A DNA stretch of 33,085 nt from an uncultured Bacteroidales bacterium (GTDB lineage: Bacteria > Bacteroidota > Bacteroidia > Bacteroidales > FEN-979), in NCBI GenBank assembly GCA_903915465.1, contig CAIWTA010000288.1:1-33085 (forward strand), written 5' to 3'. Shown in pieces: positions 4,951 to 30,985 of the stretch. The notes under the pieces were generated by a model, which was given only the letters and a program-made list of their open reading frames with translations, was not told the origin of the DNA and did no database searches. Numbering within the stretch: position 1 is the stretch's first letter; each line of letters begins with the position of its first letter. Position numbers and translations under genes: made by a program.

Positions 4951-7900
4951 CTATCCCGATTTATAAAGGAAATAGGCGTACTTGTTAATCAAGTATTGCA
5001 GGCAGGAAAGATTTTTAATTTTATTTATCGGTTCAACTTCCCGATTAGTAAAGATTTCGTCTAATCTTCCTTGTAATTTCTCATTCAAAGGAGATAGTGA
5101 ATTGTAAATGACCGTTTTTCTCTGATTGATGAATTTATCCATTGCTTCATTCTTGATTGGAAATGACATCAATGCTTCATAAGAAAGCAATTTTGACTTT
5201 TTGAAATACATTTTAATCAAATCTACCAGATAAGCAGCGTCAATTGTGGTCTTTGATTCAACTTCAACAACCTGGTTATCATTGGTTATCAGATCAAATG
5301 AACACTCAAATCCAAAATCTGCAAAATCCCCGGAATCATTAAACAATGAAACTAACCGATCTGATTTTACCGCTTTAAAAACCAGGTCTCTTGTTTTGGT
5401 TTTGATAAAATATGAACAATTTTTCAATAACAATTTTATGTCTGCTTTTTCTGAAGTACTAAACCGATAAAGCGTTGGATCTTCTAATAAAGACGGGTTA
5501 AACAACAATACTTCTCTTACAAACTTTACTTCCGAAACATGATTTTCGATCAGGTAATCTGCAATCTTGAAAAGATTTGTTTTGATCTCCGACACTTCAG
5601 TAATTTCAGTTTCAGGATCAAATTCAAAGCCGATATTTTTCAAAAAATAAAGTTCGTTTTTCAATCCAATGTATAAATCCGATAATCCCTTCTGTTTTAT
5701 ATAGGTATTCGTTACCGGATCAAATTCAAATTGCTTATCATTTGGTTCACTGCTTTGATAAATACCGCCAAGTATGTCATGTATCTTTGTTTCATCGTCA
5801 TCGTTGAAATCAATTTTCCGAACCGGTACTTTTGATAATGGCGTGAAATAAAACTCGCGAATGTTACCTTTCATCTTTGTGTTTTTTCCATACCATAAAT
5901 TGAGAAAATCAGAATTTAGAAGCGCTAAAAGATACTTCAGATTCTCTTGTGTCTCTTTTTTAGGGGTAATCAGTGTTATATCTGATTGAGGATAAGTTTT
6001 GAAATTATCATAGGCAAATGTATTTTCTTTCGCACGGCGGGAAGAGACTAATTTTTCACTTTCAAAAATTGTTTGTTCTCTTGGCCACCAGAGATCAAAC
6101 CACCGAATTCTCAACTTCTCAACTTCTCTTCGTGGATCCAAAATTCTTTTATATTTTTTGAGATGCGAAACAATGTTTGAAATTTCATTTTCAATATCAC
6201 AAATATTAATATAAAGGACGAATTGCTTTTCTTTGTAATCAACGCATCCTCGATGGATATCAGAATTTTTATAAAATGGTTTCACAAACTTCTTTTCATC
6301 CTTCGAAAGGTGTAATTTTTCGAGTTGCTGCCCATCAAAAATGAAGATCGGATCACCAGGTTTTATTTCAAATTCCTTCTGTTCTGAGAGTGGAATTTTT
6401 TTAATATTTTCTGTTGTTACTTTATCCGCGCCTGAAACGATGCCCTGGTTCACATTGAACAAATCCGTAAGAAAAGCAAAATTTCCGGATAGTTTTATGG
6501 CTTTTTCTCTTGAATAGATATACCAGGCGTGTTCATCTAATTCGCCTTGTGTTAGAGAGCTGTAATAAACATCGGCAATCTTGTCTCTTGCTTCTTTTCC
6601 GAGAGTAAAATTTGTTTTTTCAGGATTGGCAAACAAATCAAACTGAACATGATTCGAAAGCAATTCAATCCATCGATCATAGTTGGTTATGACCTTATTT
6701 TGGGAATCAATATATTTCTGATCAGTGTTAACCCAGTCTTTTAAAAACTGGATGATTTTGATTTTTTGATTTGATCGTTCCGATTCTATACTGCACTTTT
6801 CAAGTATAAAAACAATGTTCTCCTGACCTTGCGCTTCAGGGAAAAGTTTGATTCCGTTAAAATCTATTATCTCAACAATTTTTGCGTTTTCAAGAATATA
6901 TTTTCTAAGGTTTCCTGCGCCATCCGCTGTAAGCCAGTATTGCGTAGTGATAAACCCCAATTTCCCACCTTCAGCCAATTTGCTTAATCCAAGGATGATA
7001 AAATAATACAAATAGTCGCTTTTCCCCTGATAATAATGCTTCCAATATGGATGATTCTGTAATGGACGGAATAATTCCTTGTGTCCCTTTTCACCTACAT
7101 AAGGAGGATTTCCTACGACAAAATCAAAATCATTATTATTCGCTGTCAAATTGATAAATACATCTTTAAAAGTGGAAGTAAATTCTGATGTATCAAACGA
7201 AACTTGTTCAGAACCCTGAAATTCATCATGGTTGTAGATTTTCATCAATGAATCAGTCGTACAAACTCTGAAAGATTCCGTTTGTCGTTCTTCTTCATTC
7301 TCGATTCTTTTGATCAGCGACAGCACCTGAATAATTAAATTGAGTTCGGCAAGCCTGCTGGCAAATCCGGTTAATTCTGATCCGTGCAAGTTGTCAACAA
7401 TACTGCGCTTTGCTTCAGCTTCACAATTAAGCGCTTCATTGCGGATACGAATAGCCGCTTCAACAAGGAAACTTCCAGAACCACAAGATGGATCGAGCAA
7501 AGTCTTTTGGCTTATTTTTCCTTTGATCTTTCCAAAAAAGCCGACACGGTTGAGGATAAATTCAACAATATAATGTGGCGTATAATATTGTCCTTTTTCT
7601 TTCCGTTCGTCTTCATTCAGGTAATGTTCATATAAATCACCGATCAAATCAAAATTGATTTCCGCAAAATTGATTTTTGATAGTTCAAATAAAACCCTGA
7701 TAAGTAAATTTTCGTCCTTTGTTATCTGAAAATTGTAAGGAAATTTATCTTCGAAGTAAGTAAATAATTCTCCCGCTTTTACCCGTGCATCCAATAAAAT
7801 ATCCTTAAATGTCATGCTGAACGGCGGTTCCAGCTTCTTTTTAAAACCACCATTATATAAATTCTTTGGAATGAGCTCATTATCTTCAAAAATCCTGATC

Positions 7901-8772
7901 AGAACAAATCGAAGAAGGATTACATAACTAATTTGCTTCACCAACTCTTCAGCAGCTATTGCATATTTATCTTCTTCCTCACGCAAATTAATTTCACGGA
8001 TCAATTTATCCAATTCATATTTCAACTGAATATGATGATTCAGATCCTTAATCATCGGAATTATTTGTTTCCGGATATTTTCCTGGATCTTGCCAACTAG
8101 TCCATAAACAAGCGCTTTAAGAAATTTCTTATCGGGGATGATCAGGTCTTCCTTTTGCCGATTTTTAATCAGTTCAACATACTCCTCAGGTCTTATTTGT
8201 TCATATCTGAAATTATCATAAAGCCATTTAAAATTCTCAAAATCGTTTGTTCCTTCAGCCTTGTTTTCAGTAACATTTTTTAATAATTTAACCAAATTAA
8301 TTGACCGTTCTGCAAGGTGTTTTACTTTAATTACATCTTTCTCATTTTGACGTTGAAAGAATTCAAAGCGGTGAAGGTTGAAAAGAATTCCATATTCATA
8401 ACCCTTAAAAGAATTAAGATATCGATTTATCTGATAAACTGATGATTTATCATCACGACTGGAAATTATATCAACACCGGTGGATTTTGCATCTAAAATA
8501 AATTTGTTTGTTTCCAGGGTTCGGAAATCAGGTTTATCACCATCTTTGATGACCTGTTGAAGAATATTAACTCCGGACTTGAAATCAAATATTTTTAATA
8601 CCTCCAGAAGAATGGGGGTAACAACAATATCTTCATCACCTTTGTATTCTCTTTCAAAATCTTTTAACTGACAATACTCGGAAAAATTAACTGTTTGACC
8701 TTTACTATTTCGAAATCTGCCTTCATGAAAAACAGTATTGATTTTTTTTAAGATAGAATCGTAATTGACCAT
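4951..8772 (-). CDS. Type IIG restriction-modification enzyme (single-chain nuclease, methyltransferase and specificity)
   Basis: A 1273-residue Eco57I-like protein that should both methylate adenine and cleave DNA at its site. In order: an N-terminal PD-(D/E)xK nuclease with Pro81-Asp82 and the catalytic Asp94-Ala-Lys96; a helical connector (about 150-400); and an N6-adenine methyltransferase with AdoMet motif I DPSCGSGSF (427-435) and motif IV NPPY (555-558). A target-recognition region of the TaqI-C type follows (about 760-985) and ends around TPLSKVPVRKI. Beyond it is an unusual tail (about 1030-1273) with FDLITNDNQVVEVESK near 1159-1174, which resembles a second nuclease hairpin. A separate specificity subunit is not needed. 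It is the last gene of the leftward array, 93 bases after the LysM gene, with no obvious promoter match. An accessory gene among conserved ones suggests horizontal gain. Confidence 0.88.
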   Translation of the reverse strand: MVNYDSILKKINTVFHEGRFRNSKGQTVNFSEYCQLKDFEREYKGDEDIVVTPILLEVLKIFDFKSGVNILQQVIKDGDKPDFRTLETNKFILDAKSTGVDIISSRDDKSSVYQINRYLNSFKGYEYGILFNLHRFEFFQRQNEKDVIKVKHLAERSINLVKLLKNVTENKAEGTNDFENFKWLYDNFRYEQIRPEEYVELIKNRQKEDLIIPDKKFLKALVYGLVGKIQENIRKQIIPMIKDLNHHIQLKYELDKLIREINLREEEDKYAIAAEELVKQISYVILLRFVLIRIFEDNELIPKNLYNGGFKKKLEPPFSMTFKDILLDARVKAGELFTYFEDKFPYNFQITKDENLLIRVLFELSKINFAEINFDLIGDLYEHYLNEDERKEKGQYYTPHYIVEFILNRVGFFGKIKGKISQKTLLDPSCGSGSFLVEAAIRIRNEALNCEAEAKRSIVDNLHGSELTGFASRLAELNLIIQVLSLIKRIENEEERQTESFRVCTTDSLMKIYNHDEFQGSEQVSFDTSEFTSTFKDVFINLTANNNDFDFVVGNPPYVGEKGHKELFRPLQNHPYWKHYYQGKSDYLYYFIILGLSKLAEGGKLGFITTQYWLTADGAGNLRKYILENAKIVEIIDFNGIKLFPEAQGQENIVFILEKCSIESERSNQKIKIIQFLKDWVNTDQKYIDSQNKVITNYDRWIELLSNHVQFDLFANPEKTNFTLGKEARDKIADVYYSSLTQGELDEHAWYIYSREKAIKLSGNFAFLTDLFNVNQGIVSGADKVTTENIKKIPLSEQKEFEIKPGDPIFIFDGQQLEKLHLSKDEKKFVKPFYKNSDIHRGCVDYKEKQFVLYINICDIENEISNIVSHLKKYKRILDPRREVEKLRIRWFDLWWPREQTIFESEKLVSSRRAKENTFAYDNFKTYPQSDITLITPKKETQENLKYLLALLNSDFLNLWYGKNTKMKGNIREFYFTPLSKVPVRKIDFNDDDETKIHDILGGIYQSSEPNDKQFEFDPVTNTYIKQKGLSDLYIGLKNELYFLKNIGFEFDPETEITEVSEIKTNLFKIADYLIENHVSEVKFVREVLLFNPSLLEDPTLYRFSTSEKADIKLLLKNCSYFIKTKTRDLVFKAVKSDRLVSLFNDSGDFADFGFECSFDLITNDNQVVEVESKTTIDAAYLVDLIKMYFKKSKLLSYEALMSFPIKNEAMDKFINQRKTVIYNSLSPLNEKLQGRLDEIFTNREVEPINKIKNLSCLQYLINKYAYFLYKSG

Positions 8773-16987: not shown

Positions 16988-19549
16988 TCAATAAAACACA
17001 ACTTCACATTTCGGATGGGACATCTTGAATTTTGCTACTTTCTTTTCCGAAATTTTTGTGTTGAAAATCTTCAGAGATTGTAATGCAGACATAGATTCCA
17101 GCACATCCAGGCTATTGATGCGGGTGTTATAAAACTCCAGGAATTTCAGCTTTACCAGGTTTTGAAGGTATTTAAGGGTTTTAACCGGAGCTCCTGAAAA
17201 TTTCAGGGTTTCCAGGTTACGAAGATTTCCTAATGGGAGAAGATCTTCAACCTGTGTATTTGAAAAATCAAGCTCCTTTAGACCAACCATTCCGGATATG
17301 GGTGAAAGATCACTGATCGGGTTTTTCATGCATCTTATCGCAGTAAGTTTCTTCATCTGTCCCAATGGATCAAGGCTGGTGACACGTGTATCTGTGAACT
17401 GTAATTCTTTCAACCGGCTAAGATGTAAAACCGGGTGTAAGCTTATGATCGCTGCGTCATCAGCAATTACTAATGAATCGAGGCCGGCGATTTGCTGAAG
17501 TTGTATCTTATCGGGATTCCCATTGATATTTGCTTGTTTTAAGAACGCATTCTTCCACTGTTGGGGCAGGTTTTTCCACCAGTCATTATGGTCGTATGTC
17601 TGCGAAATTACCAGGCAACCTGGCATATTATCCATAAAATCATTGGCCGCAGTAAGTGAGACCCGGGTATTATCGGCAAAAATAAATTTTAGATTTTTTG
17701 CTTTCGTTAAAACACTGATATCGCTAACAAGAGTATTGTCAATGGTAAGGATTTCTAAATTTTTCAGCGCAGAGAGAGGTTCAATACTGTTGATTTTCGT
17801 GTTTGACAAGTTGATGAACTTAAGTTCAGTCAGTTGACGTACCGGTTCAAGGGAAGTGATGGAAGTGCTCTGACATTCAAGATACTTTAGCTTTACGAAT
17901 TCAGAGATCGGCTCCAGTGTGTTGATAGACAATCTGCCAATGATGTTGATGCTGTCGATGGTTGTCAACCTGTGTAATTGTTCGATAGTAGGATCATCAC
18001 CTATTTTCAGGTAGTTTGTAAATATTTTTTTCCAATCGGCAGACATCTTTCCCCACCATTTATTCAACTCTTCAGATTCAAAGATCACTGTCACCGTTGG
18101 ATGTTTCTGCATAAATTGTAATGCTTCTTTCCGGTCAATACTGGTTTTGTCGCAATAGATCTTCTTTAATCCTGAAAGGTTTTCAAAAGCGGCCAGAGAA
18201 CTGACTTTGGTATTATCAAGAAATATCAACTGAAGATTAGAGAGATTCTTCAGCGGAGTAATGTCCGTAACAGGAACATCCGTTAAATAAATTATTTCCA
18301 GATTGATCAATCCCGATATCGGATTAAGAACTGTAACCTGTGTTCCTGAAAATCTCAGATCTTTCAATCCGGTCAGGTCTTTCAATGGACCAAGATCCGT
18401 AACAGAAGTACTGCTGAAATCAAGTACTTCCAGCAAAGGGAACCCTGAAACAAGATCGAGGTTAGTGATTTGCGATTTCTTCAGCTTCAGGGATTTAATA
18501 TTATTATTATAACGCAATGGATCCAGTGTATTCACCTGAGTTCCTGAAATATCTAATGTTTCGAGGCCATTCAGGTTGCGTAGTGGCATAATGTCAATGA
18601 CAGAAGTGTTGGACAGGTTAACATCCTTCAAAGATGACAGTCTGCTCAATGGCCCCAGCTCGGTGATATTAGAATTCCCGCCAATATTGATCTCTTTAAT
18701 GTTGATAATCTGTGAAAGGAAGCCATAAAATTTTCCTGGATCAACCTTGGTCTCAACCCCATTCACCGTAGCAATGGAATCATGAAAGGAAGTAACCTGG
18801 TTCAAACGAATCGATTCATCAATTACAAATTCTTTCCCAAACACAGCTTTCCAGCTTTCTGAAAGGTTGTTCCACCAATTCCGAAGCTCATCCTTTTCAT
18901 CATATTTGGTAGTGTAAATGCTCACAATCTTTAATTGCTCCTTAGTCTCATCGTAGTTGATTTCGAAGTATCTGACCTTATTGTTATTGACAGAATCATT
19001 GTTGACAGTCGTTCCTGCCAGATTCCGGTTTGCCGTTACTTTAAAATATGTCTGTCCGACATCATTTGTCATCACACTTACATCCTGAACCGTGTATTGA
19101 AATTTTGCACGTTTAAAGAAAAAATCCACATCGCTCAGATAGGCCTGAATATCTTTATTAAGTGTGACTAATCGTTTCTCATCAAGATCATCTTCTACCT
19201 GAACCTTAGAATCCCAGAAAATCTTCTCATAACTTTCGTTGATTATCACCTGTTTTTCTTTTACAGGATTTCCTTTATCTGCGAGGAAATTCAATGTTCC
19301 CTCGAAGAACTTAACAATCTGAATGGATTGTTGCTTGAACCCTTCTAGCTGTTCAGGTGTAAACTTAATTATCGTAGTACTGACTTTTTGCTTGGGATTA
19401 TTCTTGGAGCCCTGTTTAGTTTGCTGTGTGGCAGATGATGTTTTTTTAGGAGTTTGGGATTGAGTCGTTGTCTTTTTTTGAGCAAAAGAACCGATTGACA
19501 AGAATATCAAAAAAGTTACGATGGGGATGCAGGTAAATTTAATTGTCAT
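16988..19549 (-). CDS. Secreted three-module leucine-rich-repeat protein
   Basis: An 853-residue exported protein (signal peptide 1-23, ending GSFAQ) with a Lys/Thr/Gln-rich linker (24-55), then an unassigned N-terminal domain (about 60-215). Three modules follow, each with a head matching WW..L...WK..F (at 225, 498 and 657), a run of exact 22-residue repeats of the form L.PL..L..L..L..S.T.V.D, and a C-terminal cap ending P.C.VI or similar. I count 8 repeats (298-473), 4 (545-632) and 6 (704-835). The caps are near 473-490, 633-648 and 835-853. The repeats resemble internalin/SDS22-type LRRs, so protein-protein binding is expected, but no ligand or anchor (LPXTG or type IX sorting domain) is seen. 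It overlaps the upstream gene by 11 bases and is followed closely by the ComB-like gene. Confidence 0.85.
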   Translation of the reverse strand: MTIKFTCIPIVTFLIFLSIGSFAQKKTTTQSQTPKKTSSATQQTKQGSKNNPKQKVSTTIIKFTPEQLEGFKQQSIQIVKFFEGTLNFLADKGNPVKEKQVIINESYEKIFWDSKVQVEDDLDEKRLVTLNKDIQAYLSDVDFFFKRAKFQYTVQDVSVMTNDVGQTYFKVTANRNLAGTTVNNDSVNNNKVRYFEINYDETKEQLKIVSIYTTKYDEKDELRNWWNNLSESWKAVFGKEFVIDESIRLNQVTSFHDSIATVNGVETKVDPGKFYGFLSQIINIKEINIGGNSNITELGPLSRLSSLKDVNLSNTSVIDIMPLRNLNGLETLDISGTQVNTLDPLRYNNNIKSLKLKKSQITNLDLVSGFPLLEVLDFSSTSVTDLGPLKDLTGLKDLRFSGTQVTVLNPISGLINLEIIYLTDVPVTDITPLKNLSNLQLIFLDNTKVSSLAAFENLSGLKKIYCDKTSIDRKEALQFMQKHPTVTVIFESEELNKWWGKMSADWKKIFTNYLKIGDDPTIEQLHRLTTIDSINIIGRLSINTLEPISEFVKLKYLECQSTSITSLEPVRQLTELKFINLSNTKINSIEPLSALKNLEILTIDNTLVSDISVLTKAKNLKFIFADNTRVSLTAANDFMDNMPGCLVISQTYDHNDWWKNLPQQWKNAFLKQANINGNPDKIQLQQIAGLDSLVIADDAAIISLHPVLHLSRLKELQFTDTRVTSLDPLGQMKKLTAIRCMKNPISDLSPISGMVGLKELDFSNTQVEDLLPLGNLRNLETLKFSGAPVKTLKYLQNLVKLKFLEFYNTRINSLDVLESMSALQSLKIFNTKISEKKVAKFKMSHPKCEVVFY

Positions 19550-25159: not shown

Positions 25160-26062
25160 ATGATCATCATCTTAGGCCCTACTGCCAGTGGGAAAACTGC
25201 GCTGGCCGCAAAACTCGCCAACCAGATCAATGGAGAAATTATCAGCGCAGATTCCCGGCAGGTTTACCGCGGAATGACAATCGGGACAGGGAAAGACTAT
25301 GAGGAATATTGCGTAAAAGGATCCCCAATTCCTTATCATCTGATCGATATAAAAGAACCAGGTTACGAATACAATGTTTTTGAATTTCTCCAGGATTTCC
25401 AGAAAGTATTAATCGACATTATTTCCCGTGGGAAAACTCCGGTTCTTTGCGGTGGATCTGGCATGTACATTGATGCTGTGGTGAATGGGTACAAACTTCA
25501 AAAAATTAATAAAAACCCCGAATTATTAAAAACACTCCAATCCAAAACAGGGGATGAACTAAGCGAAATGCTAAGACAGTCAAGGAAAACCCACAATACT
25601 ACTGATCTTCTTGACAGGGAAAGGATGATCCGCGCGATACAAATTTCTCAGGAATCAAATGAAGACAAAAAGAAAATCCCCTCGCTCCCGCTTCCTGGCT
25701 ATACACTCATCGGGATCTCCTTTGGCAGAGAAGCCTTACGGAAAAGAATCACAGATCGTTTAGAAAGAAGACTGCAGAACGGAATGATCACAGAAGTGGA
25801 ACAGCTGCTCAAAAACGGCCTTTCTCCTGGTCAGCTAAAATTTTACGGATTGGAATACCGGTATATCACATTATACCTTGAAGGAGAATTGACATACAAT
25901 GAAATGTTCCGGTTGCTGAATACAGCTATTCATCAATTTTCAAAAAGGCAGATGACCTGGTTTCGGAAAATAGAACGTGAAGGACATCATATCAATTGGA
26001 TAAACGGAGCCACTGATCTGGATGAAAATGTTCGTTTATCGATAGGGCTAATCAATACATAA
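25160..26062 (+). CDS. miaA: tRNA dimethylallyltransferase
   Basis: MiaA attaches a dimethylallyl group to the N6 of A37 in tRNAs that read UNN codons. The P-loop GPTASGKT (6-13) and the conserved ISADSRQVYRG with Asp31 (equivalent of the catalytic Asp) are present. So are IPYHLIDI, the CGGSGMYI segment and the C-terminal FSKRQMTWFRK motif that contacts tRNA. At 300 residues it is normal for Bacteroidota. It starts 35 bases after the CapD-like gene, so the two are probably co-transcribed even though their functions are unrelated. It may be one of two MiaA copies, as some Bacteroidota carry two; that cannot be checked here. Confidence 0.96.
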   Translation: MIIILGPTASGKTALAAKLANQINGEIISADSRQVYRGMTIGTGKDYEEYCVKGSPIPYHLIDIKEPGYEYNVFEFLQDFQKVLIDIISRGKTPVLCGGSGMYIDAVVNGYKLQKINKNPELLKTLQSKTGDELSEMLRQSRKTHNTTDLLDRERMIRAIQISQESNEDKKKIPSLPLPGYTLIGISFGREALRKRITDRLERRLQNGMITEVEQLLKNGLSPGQLKFYGLEYRYITLYLEGELTYNEMFRLLNTAIHQFSKRQMTWFRKIEREGHHINWINGATDLDENVRLSIGLINT

Positions 26063-26074
26063 TTTTACTATGGG

Positions 26075-26105
26075 TTGTGTTTTTTGCTAAAATTTATTAT
26101 TTTTG
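26075..26105 (+). promoter_or_regulatory. Full Bacteroidota promoter for the first lipoprotein
   Basis: TTG at 26075-26077, a 20-base spacer and TATTTTTG at 26098-26105 match the consensus TTG-N19/20-TAnnTTTG. It lies about 40 bases before the lipoprotein ATG at 26145 and just after the miaA stop. Confidence 0.6.
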
Positions 26106-26144
26106 CAATCAATAATATGAAATATTAACTAAAAAAATACCTTT

Positions 26145-26558
26145 ATGAAGAAGATTAATCAAGCTATGATATACGGTATCCTTCTAATGAGTATCGTTAT
26201 CGTTATTTCCGGTTGCAAAAAGAAAACTGAGACAGTGACCTATCCTACTGTATCATTCATTGTTACTTACCTGACTGTTCAGTTACAAGCAGGTGGTGAG
26301 GGTGTACAATTTTATGCTAACTGCAATTCAACCGATGTTAAAATGACAAAAGTTGAAATTTTAGACCCGATCCATAGCGGAACTGTTACCTATAACCTGA
26401 ATGGACAGGGGTATGTGAAATCTCAGATTTTTGATTTACAGGATGCTGGCACTGCTTATCAAAAACAGGGCGGTACTTATCAGATTACATTTACAGGACT
26501 TCGTACAGTTGACAACGCACCTTTTACTGTCATTTCAAACGTCAGTGTGGCAAAGTAA
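26145..26558 (+). CDS. Single-domain surface lipoprotein, unknown function
   Basis: A 137-residue probable lipoprotein: hydrophobic signal followed by the lipobox VISGC with Cys24, then KKK. The mature domain (about 33-137) is a strand-rich module of about 105 residues, reading YPTVSFIVTY, GVQFYANCNS and KVEILDP, then TYNLNG, TYQITFTGLR and a final VSNVSVAK. The pattern fits a small beta-sandwich, but no family was recognised. Its domain is nearly identical to the second domain of the 250-residue lipoprotein downstream. Between the two genes lies a fragment of the tricorn gene's end, so the pair arose by local duplication. It has its own promoter and terminator. Confidence 0.8.
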   Translation: MKKINQAMIYGILLMSIVIVISGCKKKTETVTYPTVSFIVTYLTVQLQAGGEGVQFYANCNSTDVKMTKVEILDPIHSGTVTYNLNGQGYVKSQIFDLQDAGTAYQKQGGTYQITFTGLRTVDNAPFTVISNVSVAK

Positions 26559-26580
26559 ACGTTCATTAAACTTCTCCAAA

Positions 26581-26610
26581 AACCCAACATAAATAATGTT
26601 GGGTTTTTTT
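26581..26610 (+). terminator. Intrinsic terminator of the first lipoprotein gene
   Basis: A perfect 10-base stem (AACCCAACAT at 26581-26590 pairing with 26596-26605) closes a 5-base loop and is followed directly by a T-run, 22 bases after the stop codon. Confidence 0.85.
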
Positions 26611-26623
26611 GTTATTGCTCAGA

Positions 26624-26716
26624 TCACTTGGTTTTGCCAGGTAAAGGAGGAATTCCCGGCAACTCTTTCCTTACGGATGTTAACTCTTCTGTTAGCTCAA
26701 ATTTGGATAGATTTGA
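26624..26716 (-). pseudogene. Remnant of the tricorn protease C-terminus
   Basis: On the minus strand a 30-codon open stretch ends in RKELPGIPPLPGKTK and a stop. The intact tricorn gene ends PKELPGIPPYPDKTK. At DNA level 26622-26668 matches 27658-27704 at 42 of 47 positions by my alignment. Farther upstream, ELTEELTSVRK is still recognisably like EVIKDELKSWPK, then an in-frame stop interrupts (26717-26719). It is a decayed duplicate lying after the first lipoprotein's terminator, in the same place and orientation as the true tricorn end lies after the second lipoprotein's terminator. It might alternatively come from a second, lost tricorn paralogue. Confidence 0.8.
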
Positions 26717-26799
26717 TCATTGTCGTAAAAAAAAGTCCATCTATCAAAAATCTTCCCAATAGATTTTTTTGTCAAAACGTTACTGTATGTACTTTTTGT

Positions 26800-26807
26800 T
26801 ACTTTTG
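26800..26807 (+). promoter_or_regulatory. -7 promoter box for the second lipoprotein
   Basis: TACTTTTG, an exact TAnnTTTG match, lies 33 bases before the ATG at 26841. A shifted near-match (TACTTTTTG) lies 10 bases earlier with TTTG 18 bases upstream of it, so the exact start point is uncertain. Confidence 0.45.
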
Positions 26808-26840
26808 TGATAAATAATGTTATCTCATAAAATCCAGGAT

Positions 26841-27593
26841 ATGAATAAACTTAATCGGGTTATTGTTTACAGTATTCTAATAATGAGTATCATTATCGCT
26901 TTTTCCGGTTGCAAAAAAAAGACGGATGAATCACCCGCACCAACCTATCCAGCAGATCCTATTCCTGCCTTTACCATAACTTACCAGACAGTTCCATTAG
27001 CCAGCAATGATACAGGAGTTAAGTTTTTTGCAAACTGCAGCACAACGGGCATAAAAATGACGAAAGTGGATATTGTCAATCCAATCAATGGGACCATATC
27101 GTTTGCCCTGAATGGCCAAATATTTGATAGCGCTCAAGTTTTTGCTTTACAAAGTGAAGCTACTATTTACCAGAAACATGTTGGTACTTACCGGATTATT
27201 TTTAGTGGATTCCGTAAAGTTGATAATGCACCGTTTACTATTGTCACATACATTAATGTTACCAGGGATGATCCCTATCCTGCTGTTTCATTTATCGTTA
27301 CTTACCTGACAGTTCAGTTGCAAGTAGGTGGTGAGGGTGTACAATTTTATGCTAACTGCAATTCAACAGATGTTAAAATGACAAAAGTGGAAATTTTAGA
27401 CCCGATTCACAGTGGAACCGTAACTTATAACCTGAATGGTAATGCATATGTAAGATCTCAGATCTTTGCTTTACAGGATAATTCCACTGCTTATGCAAAA
27501 CAGAGTGGTACATATCAGATAACTTTTTCTGGTCTTCGCACAGCTGACAGCGCACCGTTTGTCAATGTTGTAAATGTTCCTGTTTCCAAATAA
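26841..27593 (+). CDS. Two-domain surface lipoprotein, paralogue of the single-domain one
   Basis: A 250-residue probable lipoprotein. I chose ATG 26841 because it aligns with the start of the upstream paralogue (MNKLNRVIVYSILIMS against MKKINQAMIYGILLMS); the ORF can be extended to 26817. The lipobox FSGC is followed by KKK. It has two copies of the 105-residue beta-rich module: module A (about 40-140, TITYQTVPL to INVTRDD) and module B (about 145-250, YPAVSFIVTY to NVPVSK). Module B is nearly identical to the single-domain protein, including DNA identity from 27276, while module A is much more diverged. The function is unknown; surface attachment by lipidation is inferred. Confidence 0.82.
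   Translation: MNKLNRVIVYSILIMSIIIAFSGCKKKTDESPAPTYPADPIPAFTITYQTVPLASNDTGVKFFANCSTTGIKMTKVDIVNPINGTISFALNGQIFDSAQVFALQSEATIYQKHVGTYRIIFSGFRKVDNAPFTIVTYINVTRDDPYPAVSFIVTYLTVQLQVGGEGVQFYANCNSTDVKMTKVEILDPIHSGTVTYNLNGNAYVRSQIFALQDNSTAYAKQSGTYQITFSGLRTADSAPFVNVVNVPVSK
27276..27593 (+). repeat. Duplicated lipoprotein module (second copy of 26241-26558)
   Basis: This stretch and 26241-26558 run almost base for base from TATCCT to the end of each gene, for example GGTGGTGAGGGTGTACAATT in both, with scattered mostly silent changes. That indicates a recent duplication or gene conversion between the two lipoprotein genes. Confidence 0.85.
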
Positions 27594-27602
27594 AGATTGT
27601 TA

Positions 27603-27644
27603 AAAAAAAAGAGGCTGCTTTCAAAAAAGTAGCCTCTTTTTTTT
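27603..27644. terminator. Bidirectional terminator between the lipoprotein and tricorn genes
   Basis: A perfect 14-base arm pair (27603-27616 with 27631-27644) has GAGGCT/AGCCTC as its core and an A-run on the left matched by a T-run on the right. The inside of the loop can extend the hairpin by a few more pairs. It lies between two convergent genes and would stop transcripts from either side. Confidence 0.85.
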
Positions 27645-27659
27645 CCCTGATCACTTCGA

Positions 27660-30600
27660 TCACTTAGTTTTATCAGGGTAAGGAGGAATTCCCGGCAACT
27701 CTTTAGGCCAGCTTTTTAATTCATCTTTTATCACTTCAATGGCTTTATTCAATTGCTCATCCTCACCTGCGTATTCTTTTGCAGGATCATTATCTACGAT
27801 AATGTCAGGATCCACTCCATGACCTTCAATTATCCAATTCTTTCCTTCAGTGTCATACGGTGCAAATTCCGGTTTCCTTAAAGAACCCCCATCAATAAAT
27901 GGCAAGGAACCACGAATACCGACAACTCCACCCCATGATCGTGTACCGATAATTTTCCCCATCTTCATCTTTTTGAACTGGTAGGGAAAAAGATCCCCGT
28001 CTGAAGCAGAATAGCGGTCAATTAACATGCACTTGGGCCCCCACACCATTTCAAGTCGGCCAGGACTTCCTTCAGTATTCCGTGCCATTTTGATCATGGT
28101 CATTTCCCGATTCAATCGCTCAATAATCATAGGAGATACGTTTCCACCACCATTTCCACGATCATCAATGATCAATGCACGTTTGCTAAGTTGTGGATAA
28201 AAATGTTTTACAAATTCATTTAACCCCTCAGGACCCATGTCAGGAATATGGATATACCCGACCTCGCCATTCGTTGCATCACTTACCTTTTTAATATTTC
28301 CCTGCACCCAGTTATAATAGAATAACTTTTCTTCATTGCCGGTAGGAACGGCAATTGTCTTGTGCGAACCAGCTTCACTTGCTGTAGCATTTACCGTAAG
28401 TTCAACCTGGCAATCAGCCATATTAAAGAGCGACTGATAAATATCCTGCATATCTTTGGTTGATTTTCCATTGACTGCAAGTATATAATCTCCCTCCTTT
28501 ACATCAACTCCAAGTTCGGTTAATGGTGAACGGCCATCACCAGTCCAATTCTCTCCCCTGAAGATTTTCTCAATCTTATAATAACCAGACGCATCTCTCG
28601 ACAGCCGTGCCCCGAGAAGCCCCATTTTAATTCTGAGAGGTTGAGGTTTATCGCCACCTTCAATGTAAGAATGGCCTGTACTAAGCTCTGCAACCATCTC
28701 CCCTAAAACATAAGTCAGGTCATTTCTGTGATTAACATAAGACAACAAGGGTTCATATTTTTTCTTAACTGATTCCCAGTCAACGCCAGACATATTTGGA
28801 GCAAAATAGAAATATTTCATCTGGCGCCATGCTTCGTAGTAAATTTGAGCCCATTCTGCTTTCTGATCAACCAGGACCTTCATGTTGTTGAGATCTAACC
28901 AATCTTTCACTTCAACTTTCCCTTTTGGGATATCAATCACAGCGAACTTTCCAGTCGCAAGAAGTAGCATCTTCTTTGTATCAGCAGAAATCTCATATCC
29001 ATTAAAATCGCCAATACTGGTCTCCTTTTTATCTTTGAGGTTGAATGTCATTAAAGTGCCACCTTGTTTCCCGCGTTTCAGGTAATAGACATTATCACCC
29101 ACAGCATTCACATGATCATAAGATGAAGCTTCAATCGGAAGCACAACGATGCGATCAATAATTCCGTCAATATCAACTTTAATATCGGCAGCCTTCTTGG
29201 TATCGGACTCCTTCTTCTCTTCTTTCTTATCTGGTTTTTTATCAGATTTTGCATCTGCTGAAAGTGAGTCTTCTTTTTTAAGATTTACTTCGTCATTTTC
29301 TGGTGCAAAAGGAGAAGGAGTGCTTTTCGATAAGGTAACAAAGTAAACCTTAGTCATATCAGCATAAGAATGGTTCCATTCTGTCCAGCTGTAAGTCGGA
29401 TTGAAATCCCTGTTAGAAGTAAAGAACAGGAATCTGCCATCATTGCTGAACGCGGGAGTCCCTGCATCGTACCAACCATCTGTTACAGGAAACCTGCCCT
29501 TGGTTGCAAGTTCAAACAGGTAAATCTTAGTCTGGGTAGTTTTATCCGGCTTCGCATAAGTTATCCATTTACTGTCAGGAGACCATCCAAATTCCGTGAA
29601 TTCCCAATCAATGGAGCGATCTACCATCGTAACTTCTTTTGAGTCAATATTCACAAACTGCAACCTGAGTAGCTTATCTGCCCAGAGAAGTTTTTTACTG
29701 TCCGGCGCCCAGATCGCTCCATATTTATAGGTATCCGCATTTTTTGTGATCTGAACCGGAGCTGCACTTCCATCTTGTTTCTGGATATAAATTTCATCTT
29801 CACCAGTTAAATCAGAAGTGTATGCAATGTACTGACCATCAGGAGACCATGCAACATCACGCTCATGAACGCCAGAAGATCGTGTCAGATTTTTAGTAAT
29901 CCCGGTCTTCTCAGGCACTGTGAAAATATCACCCCTGGCATCAAATGCAACTCTCTTTCCATCAGGAGCAAGTGACGCTGAGTTGATAAACTTGCCAGCA
30001 TCCTTCATTACATTTCGCCCGGTTATTAAATCGTCGGCTATGCGAATGGCGACCTTCGAAGTTTGCCCGGACGCAAGATCATAAGTATAGATGAATCCTC
30101 CATTTTCGAATACGATCGACTGGTTGCCGATGGAAGGGAATTTGATATCAAATTCTGTAAAATTAGTGACTCTGGTAGTCAACTTTTTTGTCAGGTCATA
30201 ACAAAACAGGTTCATAATCCTTTCCCTGTCGCTGCAGAAATAGATTTTATCTCCGGCCCACATTGGGAAAATATCCTGCGCAGGATTATTCGTGATATTT
30301 TCTGTCTGCCTGGACTTGAAGTCATATATCACAATATCATCGGCCATACCACCTTTATAATATTTCCATGTTCGGAACTCCCTGAAAACCCTGTTATAGG
30401 CAAGCTTTGTCCGGTCAGGAGAATAGCTGGCGAAACCTCCTGCCGGTAACGGAAGTTCTTCAGGCATACCACCCTTGACATCTTCCAAAAATAACTGTCC
30501 TTTAAAATCATTAAAAGTCTGCTTACGAGAACGAAATAAGATATGCTCATTGTCACGCCATGTCATCACGATGTTATTCGGCCCCATGCGGTCTGCAACG

Positions 30601-30935
30601 TCGTCTCTTCCAATCGTGGCAGTATATGAAAGACGCTGTGGAATTCCACCTTCCGCAGGAATAAGGTAAACTTCTGTATTCCCATCGTACTGGCCTGTGA
30701 ATGCGATCTTTTTTCCATCCGGAGAAAAACGGGCAAACATCTCAAATCCGACCTCATCATTTGTCAACTTTCTGGCCAGACCTCCAGTTTTGTCGACGGA
30801 ATAAAGGTCACCTGCATAAGTAAAAACAATCTGATTCCCATGGATGGCAGGAAAACGCAACAATCGGGCTTCATCCTGAGAGTAACCCTTCATCACAGAC
30901 AGAAGCATGGCGAAAACCAAAAAATAATTTTTCAT
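27660..30935 (-). CDS. Tricorn-like S41 serine peptidase, exported
   Basis: A 1091-residue tricorn protease homologue, a large peptidase that degrades peptides. The start at 30935 (MKNYFLVFAMLL) gives a signal ending GYSQ, so it is likely periplasmic. It has N-terminal beta-propeller repeats of TolB/WD40 type (about 25-535, with several FSPDGKKIAF- or WSPDGQYIAY-like blades), a Lys/Glu/Asp-rich linker (about 550-585) and a tricorn core domain. A PDZ domain follows (about 770-870, GLLGARL to VDVKEGDYILAVNGK), then the S41 catalytic domain. Catalytic candidates are His755 (STGHSY), nucleophile Ser978 in SASDGD and Glu1037 in IEGHGVDPD, all present, with DDRGNGGG as the oxyanion region. It converges with the lipoprotein genes. 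A duplicated scrap of its 3' end is at 26624-26716. Confidence 0.94.
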   Translation of the reverse strand: MKNYFLVFAMLLSVMKGYSQDEARLLRFPAIHGNQIVFTYAGDLYSVDKTGGLARKLTNDEVGFEMFARFSPDGKKIAFTGQYDGNTEVYLIPAEGGIPQRLSYTATIGRDDVADRMGPNNIVMTWRDNEHILFRSRKQTFNDFKGQLFLEDVKGGMPEELPLPAGGFASYSPDRTKLAYNRVFREFRTWKYYKGGMADDIVIYDFKSRQTENITNNPAQDIFPMWAGDKIYFCSDRERIMNLFCYDLTKKLTTRVTNFTEFDIKFPSIGNQSIVFENGGFIYTYDLASGQTSKVAIRIADDLITGRNVMKDAGKFINSASLAPDGKRVAFDARGDIFTVPEKTGITKNLTRSSGVHERDVAWSPDGQYIAYTSDLTGEDEIYIQKQDGSAAPVQITKNADTYKYGAIWAPDSKKLLWADKLLRLQFVNIDSKEVTMVDRSIDWEFTEFGWSPDSKWITYAKPDKTTQTKIYLFELATKGRFPVTDGWYDAGTPAFSNDGRFLFFTSNRDFNPTYSWTEWNHSYADMTKVYFVTLSKSTPSPFAPENDEVNLKKEDSLSADAKSDKKPDKKEEKKESDTKKAADIKVDIDGIIDRIVVLPIEASSYDHVNAVGDNVYYLKRGKQGGTLMTFNLKDKKETSIGDFNGYEISADTKKMLLLATGKFAVIDIPKGKVEVKDWLDLNNMKVLVDQKAEWAQIYYEAWRQMKYFYFAPNMSGVDWESVKKKYEPLLSYVNHRNDLTYVLGEMVAELSTGHSYIEGGDKPQPLRIKMGLLGARLSRDASGYYKIEKIFRGENWTGDGRSPLTELGVDVKEGDYILAVNGKSTKDMQDIYQSLFNMADCQVELTVNATASEAGSHKTIAVPTGNEEKLFYYNWVQGNIKKVSDATNGEVGYIHIPDMGPEGLNEFVKHFYPQLSKRALIIDDRGNGGGNVSPMIIERLNREMTMIKMARNTEGSPGRLEMVWGPKCMLIDRYSASDGDLFPYQFKKMKMGKIIGTRSWGGVVGIRGSLPFIDGGSLRKPEFAPYDTEGKNWIIEGHGVDPDIIVDNDPAKEYAGEDEQLNKAIEVIKDELKSWPKELPGIPPYPDKTK

Positions 30936-30977
30936 GAAACGAAGTATTAATTTGTAAAAAAGTTCCTTGACTAAAGA

Positions 30978-30985
30978 CAAAAGTA
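30978..30985 (-). promoter_or_regulatory. -7 promoter box for the tricorn gene
   Basis: The minus strand reads TACTTTTG, an exact TAnnTTTG match, about 42 bases before the ATG at 30935. No -33 TTG at standard spacing. The divergent region 30936-31218 otherwise holds no convincing gene. Confidence 0.5.

Follow-up and report, generated by a model that had tools for sequence, protein, structure and literature searches.

A tricorn-gene fossil between two lipoprotein genes points to tandem block duplication in an uncultured Bacteroidales bacterium

In a 33,085-nucleotide stretch of DNA from an uncultured Bacteroidales bacterium (assembly GCA_903915465.1, contig CAIWTA010000288.1; the whole stretch is referred to here as the window), two genes predicted to encode lipoproteins lie side by side between miaA and a convergent gene for a tricorn-like peptidase, and a minus-strand fragment resembling the last codons of the tricorn gene lies between them. 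How did the end of one gene come to stand between two copies of another? We conclude, with good confidence, that a short direct tandem duplication copied a lipoprotein gene, its terminator and about 24 terminal codons of tricorn. The copied unit would also have included the promoter, probably; the copy beside miaA would be lipoprotein 1 with the tail fossil, and the other copy would be lipoprotein 2, which converges on the intact tricorn gene. The duplication itself may have arisen by slippage or by unequal exchange between sister copies. The repeats are direct and adjacent, in the same order and orientation, with offsets of 696, 1035 and 1036 bases. The parts principally involved are as follows.

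26145-26558, plus strand: lipoprotein 1, an open reading frame of 137 residues with a signal peptide, a lipobox-like cysteine and one beta-sandwich domain (predicted model)
26624-26702, minus strand: tricorn-tail fossil, the final 23-25 codons and stop, with the significant match at 26627-26695 (tblastn, profile and DNA alignment)
26841-27593, plus strand: lipoprotein 2, an open reading frame of 250 residues with a signal peptide and domains A and B (repeat alignment); this start was picked by homology to lipoprotein 1, the ATG at 26817 being less likely
26934-27266, plus strand: domain A of lipoprotein 2, without a counterpart in lipoprotein 1 (repeat offsets and domain alignment)
27267-27590, plus strand: domain B of lipoprotein 2, counterpart of the lipoprotein 1 domain (79% of residues in the domain alignment)
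27660-30980, minus strand: the intact tricorn-like peptidase gene, source of the tail, with PD40 repeats, Tricorn_C1, PDZ_Tricorn and Peptidase_S41

The preliminary description of this DNA, made from its letters, had proposed a tricorn-end remnant after lipoprotein 1 and its terminator, and its figures hold: 42 of 47 bases are identical to the true tail (exact for 26622-26668), and the final 14 codons, KELPGIPPLPGKTK in one copy and KELPGIPPYPDKTK in the other, differ at two residues. The fossil stop (26624-26626) and the true tricorn stop (27660-27662) are offset by 1036 bases. The homology, however, extends past those best-matching 14 codons, to about 23-25 codons, which the preliminary description had missed; on the minus strand the fossil translates as ELTEELTSVRKELPGIPPLPGKTK followed by a stop, against EVIKDELKSWPKELPGIPPYPDKTK and a stop for the true end. 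A tblastn search with the last 31 tricorn residues against the window and regions from 44 relatives matched 26627-26695 on the minus strand (65% over 23 residues, E 6.7e-6). Against a profile of 30 tails, taken from the 33 sequences of our tricorn tree and including this genome's own tail, the fossil scores 25.3 bits, a value reached by 0 of 3000 dinucleotide shuffles; a local DNA alignment of fossil and tail was equalled by 0 of 2000. We compared the fossil with the 42 tails, out of 45 and counting that of the window, for which a match reaches the end, and its own genome's tail scored best (39.1; next 32.2). Upstream of the fossil the reading frame is blocked by stops, and tblastn found no further tricorn match there; 138 bases separate the fossil (26702) from lipoprotein 2. 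The intact gene has the domain make-up of tricorn protease-like S41 peptidases (PD40 propeller, PDZ_Tricorn, Tricorn_C1), whereas the fossil, consisting solely of the terminal 23-25 codons after the catalytic domain, has neither the catalytic S41 domain nor the propeller.

The three parts of the repeat can be dated separately. Lipoprotein 1 and domain B differ by 0.654 synonymous substitutions per site (dS) and 0.121 non-synonymous substitutions per site (dN), a dN/dS ratio of 0.19, and the signal peptides of the two lipoproteins have a dS of 0.657 (27 codons). The fossil mismatches the true tail at 22 of 78 bases, where 23.2 would be expected under neutral decay over the age of the lipoprotein pair, assuming that the fossil has drifted since the same time and that the true tail has been constrained at non-synonymous sites. 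Signal peptide, lipoprotein domain and fossil thus agree in age, which indicates a single event, as expected of one block duplication. The proposal of a block duplication with later decay of the extra tail is therefore supported by the equal ages, by the best match being to the genome's own tail, and by there being one tricorn gene in the genome. The preliminary description was correct in outline, including the same order of lipoprotein, terminator and tail in both copies, and needs amending for a difference of one domain between the copies, for apparent purifying selection on both lipoproteins and for a similar pair in a second genus.

The domain difference is read from the offsets. The shift from 696 bases at the signal peptide to 1035 at the domain (339 bases, or 113 codons) means that lipoprotein 2 holds one whole additional in-frame domain. 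Domain A is more diverged from domain B (dS 1.09) and from lipoprotein 1 (dS 1.68) than lipoprotein 1 is from domain B, and so looks older than the block duplication, in which case lipoprotein 1 probably lost domain A. The simplest order of events is a two-domain gene, then block duplication, then loss of A from copy 1, which could have occurred by a recombination event joining the start of A to the start of B. It is also possible that lipoprotein 2 gained domain A from a third copy.

Both lipoprotein genes look to have been under purifying selection since the duplication. The low dN/dS, intact frames, TAnnTTTG motifs and own terminator-like hairpins together argue that both are alive, and they are probably separate transcription units; only the tail is a fossil. 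Both genes would have been retained by selection after the duplication, with the tail, which has no open frame upstream, drifting about neutrally. The TAnnTTTG motif, which we take to be the Bacteroidetes -7 promoter element, occurs at -41 to -62 in each of the 10 regions tested upstream of lipoprotein genes (expected number 0.34). The elements around the two genes, and the upstream neighbour, are as follows.

25160-26062, plus strand: miaA (tRNA dimethylallyltransferase; Pfam IPPT, E 1e-56), a neighbour in relatives as well
26098-26105, plus strand: TATTTTTG, TAnnTTTG promoter-like motif of lipoprotein 1, 47 bases 5' of the ATG (motif count and position)
26578-26608, plus strand: intrinsic-terminator-like hairpin 3' of lipoprotein 1 (terminator scan)
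26800-26807, plus strand: TACTTTTG, promoter-like motif of lipoprotein 2, 41 bases 5' of the ATG (motif count and position)
27611-27644, plus strand: terminator-like hairpin and T run 3' of lipoprotein 2, stem at 27611-27636, read in the sequence and unlisted by the terminator scan

No Rfam element reached its gathering threshold in 25900-27900. Both products qualify as predicted bacterial lipoproteins, with a signal peptide and a lipobox cysteine (ISGCKKK and FSGCKKK after a hydrophobic stretch); by eye, the cysteine is invariant in 8 of 8 aligned sequences. The lipoprotein domain is modelled as a seven-stranded beta sandwich of a widespread type (predicted; mean predicted local distance difference test score 83.6). 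In a fold comparison the best row had Z 8.9 and a root-mean-square deviation of 3.0 over 89 residues, with rows tied; the top rows, ApaG, glucuronidase sandwich domains and an archaeal pilin, have the overall beta-sandwich fold in common with it. Foldseek gave no match for the domain under E 0.001, and a Pfam scan of both lipoproteins gave nothing above cut-off. Given the tied rows and the lack of a Foldseek match, neither a family nor a function is assignable, and a family missing from the list is not thereby excluded. Our guess would be a role in binding or structure, exposed on the surface.

We found tricorn in 38 of 41 genomes in one search and in 16 of 18 in a second with a stricter threshold, and took the regions beyond its 3' end from the 44 relatives; seven of these regions stop about 0.3 to 2 kb past the tricorn end. 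A lipoprotein of the same family lies beside tricorn in 7 of the 44. Six (G001, G002, G003, G004, G005 and G007) have a single one-domain lipoprotein in the order miaA, lipoprotein, terminator, tricorn, the single-copy arrangement that the preliminary description had suggested looking for, and one (G012) has two genes. Two full tricorn genes in relatives, which would have favoured a deleted second gene, were seen in none of the 44 regions, seven of them short, nor did tblastn at E 1e-3 match the tail anywhere in them other than in the tricorn gene itself. A contig scan for tricorn relatives gave 22 loci, and at none of them do two lipoprotein genes lie side by side. Those relatives that have named records are for the most part uncultured Bacteroidales or Bacteroidetes. 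In 12 genomes miaA faces tricorn without a lipoprotein, 7 of them with gaps of 32-114 bases. Of 393 genomes sampled from the order, 4 have the lipoprotein family (E 1e-6), as do 21 of 43 from the taxonomic family (E 1e-3); its numbers of copies and of domains seem to vary while its location stays fixed.

Several other features of these neighbourhoods were noted. The other five of those 12 genomes, all of genus g8 (G015, G021, G018, G011 and G024; L087, L090-L093), carry an unrelated minus-strand gene of 128-146 residues in the miaA-tricorn gap; by eye, its product combines a signal-like N-terminus with a charged stretch and a hydrophobic segment. A query with this MiaA gave a second, distant match (30-36% identity) in addition to the close one in 12 of 13 relatives, so that two MiaA paralogues seem usual in this taxonomic family. 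In G009 (L084 1095-1357) the contig past the tricorn terminator enters short tandem repeats (GTGACGC, CAGTTTC-like) and then ends.

The G012 locus, in another genus, has the order one-domain gene (138 residues), terminator-like hairpin, 0.2 kb spacer, two-domain gene (245 residues), hairpin, tricorn. The stretches upstream of its two lipoprotein genes resemble each other (matched by 0 of 2000 and 0 of 3000 shuffles), and the likeness begins in the last four miaA codons (L089 positions 5094 and 5705; 0 of 3000 shuffles), indicating that the duplicated block there began inside miaA; such a junction is what a tandem duplication would give. On the minus strand the spacer reads VLEELKERWLPI*PYLTDQNK. 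Three overlapping tests of the spacer against the tail were equalled by 56 of 2000, 55 of 3000 and 60 of 3000 shuffles (about 2-3%), and the best scorer among the 42 tails was that of G009, not its own; the likeness is suggestive of a decayed tricorn tail.

The histories of the two loci do not coincide in a simple way. In the tricorn tree, whose 33 sequences were selected from those found in the two tricorn searches, G012 and G005 are sisters (100/100), as are this genome and G009 (91/86, not starred). In a tree of the lipoprotein domains (18 rows, 111 columns), the six domains of both pairs form a single group (94/94, not starred); the approximately unbiased test rejects placing the G012 domains in one clade with the G005 lipoprotein (p 0.007), as well as making the two B domains a clade (p 0.025). 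Left out of this tree were matches in G053, G050, G048, G019, G017, G015, G021, G020 and G326, as well as those of G012 on C185 and C230 and of G004 on C6, on the grounds that the frame was unrecovered, that they were weak or partial, or that they were found later. Synonymous distances between the two genomes are near or at saturation, like those of tricorn itself. Within genomes, A and B differ by dS 0.89 in G012, compared with 0.65 for lipoprotein 1 and B in this genome, and domain pairs within a genome are all less diverged at synonymous sites than those between genomes, the exceptions being the two comparisons of G012 lipoprotein 1 with the A and B domains of that genome. By dS, domain doubling preceded block duplication here, and in G012 the split of lipoproteins 1 and 2 preceded domain doubling. 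This difference in timing means that the locus was duplicated twice, that an old pair was homogenised, or that a cassette was exchanged long ago. We think it quite conceivable, while leaning slightly against it, that the interval between miaA and tricorn is prone to repeated duplication, with independent block duplications in two genera that each took in a partial tricorn tail and each gave a one-domain and two-domain pair; the opposite orders of events fit such parallel evolution of one architecture.

Some observations weigh against the favoured tandem duplication. No alignment better than chance was obtained between the two terminators (397 of 3000 shuffles did as well), though the stop-to-stop spacers are 65 and 66 bases, and promoters 1 and 2 are not clearly alike (156 of 3000 anchored and 260 of 2000 unanchored shuffles as good); both elements are too diverged for dating. 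In this genome no homology was detected between the miaA end and the junction at 26691-26800 (1211 of 2000 shuffles as good). The fossil mismatches are uneven: the last 45 bases hold 5 where 13.6 would be expected (P 0.0024, for a boundary picked post hoc) and the preceding 33 hold 17, so that a later short gene conversion or an earlier breakpoint is possible. Finally, the G012 arrangement fits equally a single older duplication with later homogenisation, and given that related pair, one duplication may not cover the whole history of the locus. In that account, one old block duplication preceded the split of the two lineages, and here gene conversion between the copies later made the signal peptide, domain B and the tail look younger. 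We regard it as possible but doubtful; it is a variant of the tandem duplication proposed above, differing on timing, and our confidences in the two overlap. It would explain the same pair in another genus, the joint clade of six domains with rejection of the G005 grouping, the tail-like G012 spacer, and a longest identical run of 42 bases between lipoprotein 1 and domain B, a length matched by 61 of 5000 codon permutations. It sits poorly with the lower divergence within genomes and with the rejected clade of B domains, demands one long conversion that skipped domain A to give three parts of equal age, and needs several losses for the single-copy arrangement of G001-G005.

Horizontal exchange of a two-lipoprotein cassette between the lineages of this genome and G012 is unlikely. 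The lipoprotein tree does conflict with the tricorn tree, in that the G012 lipoproteins group with those of this genome and not with that of sister G005, but that tree rests on 111 columns, the near-saturated cross-genome divergences would make any exchange old, and the fossil best matches its own tail. We consider it very improbable that an entire second copy of tricorn arose along with the lipoprotein duplicate and was then deleted to its last codons: the fossil is the 3' end of the gene, which could also be what a deletion left, but none of the 44 relative regions has an adjacent tricorn pair, and tblastn matched no more of the gene in the 138 bases before lipoprotein 2. Chance similarity or assembly error is a negligible prospect. 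The shuffles speak against chance, and nothing points to misassembly beyond the genome (4.07 Mb, with a single full-length tricorn by own-genome search) being in 329 contigs; such an error would not produce copies that differ at dS 0.65.

The tandem block duplication favoured here is a well-preserved case of an ordinary process and no new kind of system. A close parallel is the tandem copying of a whole gene together with a piece of its neighbour, complete and partial duplicates in the terminology of PMC3449122: a whole reading frame and its flank are copied, the neighbour is copied in part, and the partial copy decays. The present case is of the same kind, with copies that additionally differ by one domain. 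PMC12607827 reports engineered tandem gene duplications in bacteria of 2.6 to 497 kb that are genetically unstable; the copy here is likewise direct and tandem, but is about 1 kb, old (dS 0.65) and retained. Our literature searches found no publications on this miaA-tricorn locus. The fossil tail marks the reach of a bacterial tandem duplication and allows a neutral fragment to be dated against selected gene copies.

Two other genes in the window were noted by eye. At 4951-8772 is a single-chain protein of 1273 residues that resembles a type IIG restriction-methylation enzyme (NPPY motif). At 16988-19549 is an 853-residue protein with three blocks of short leucine-rich-like repeats and similar linkers between them, a pattern that suggests internal triplication.

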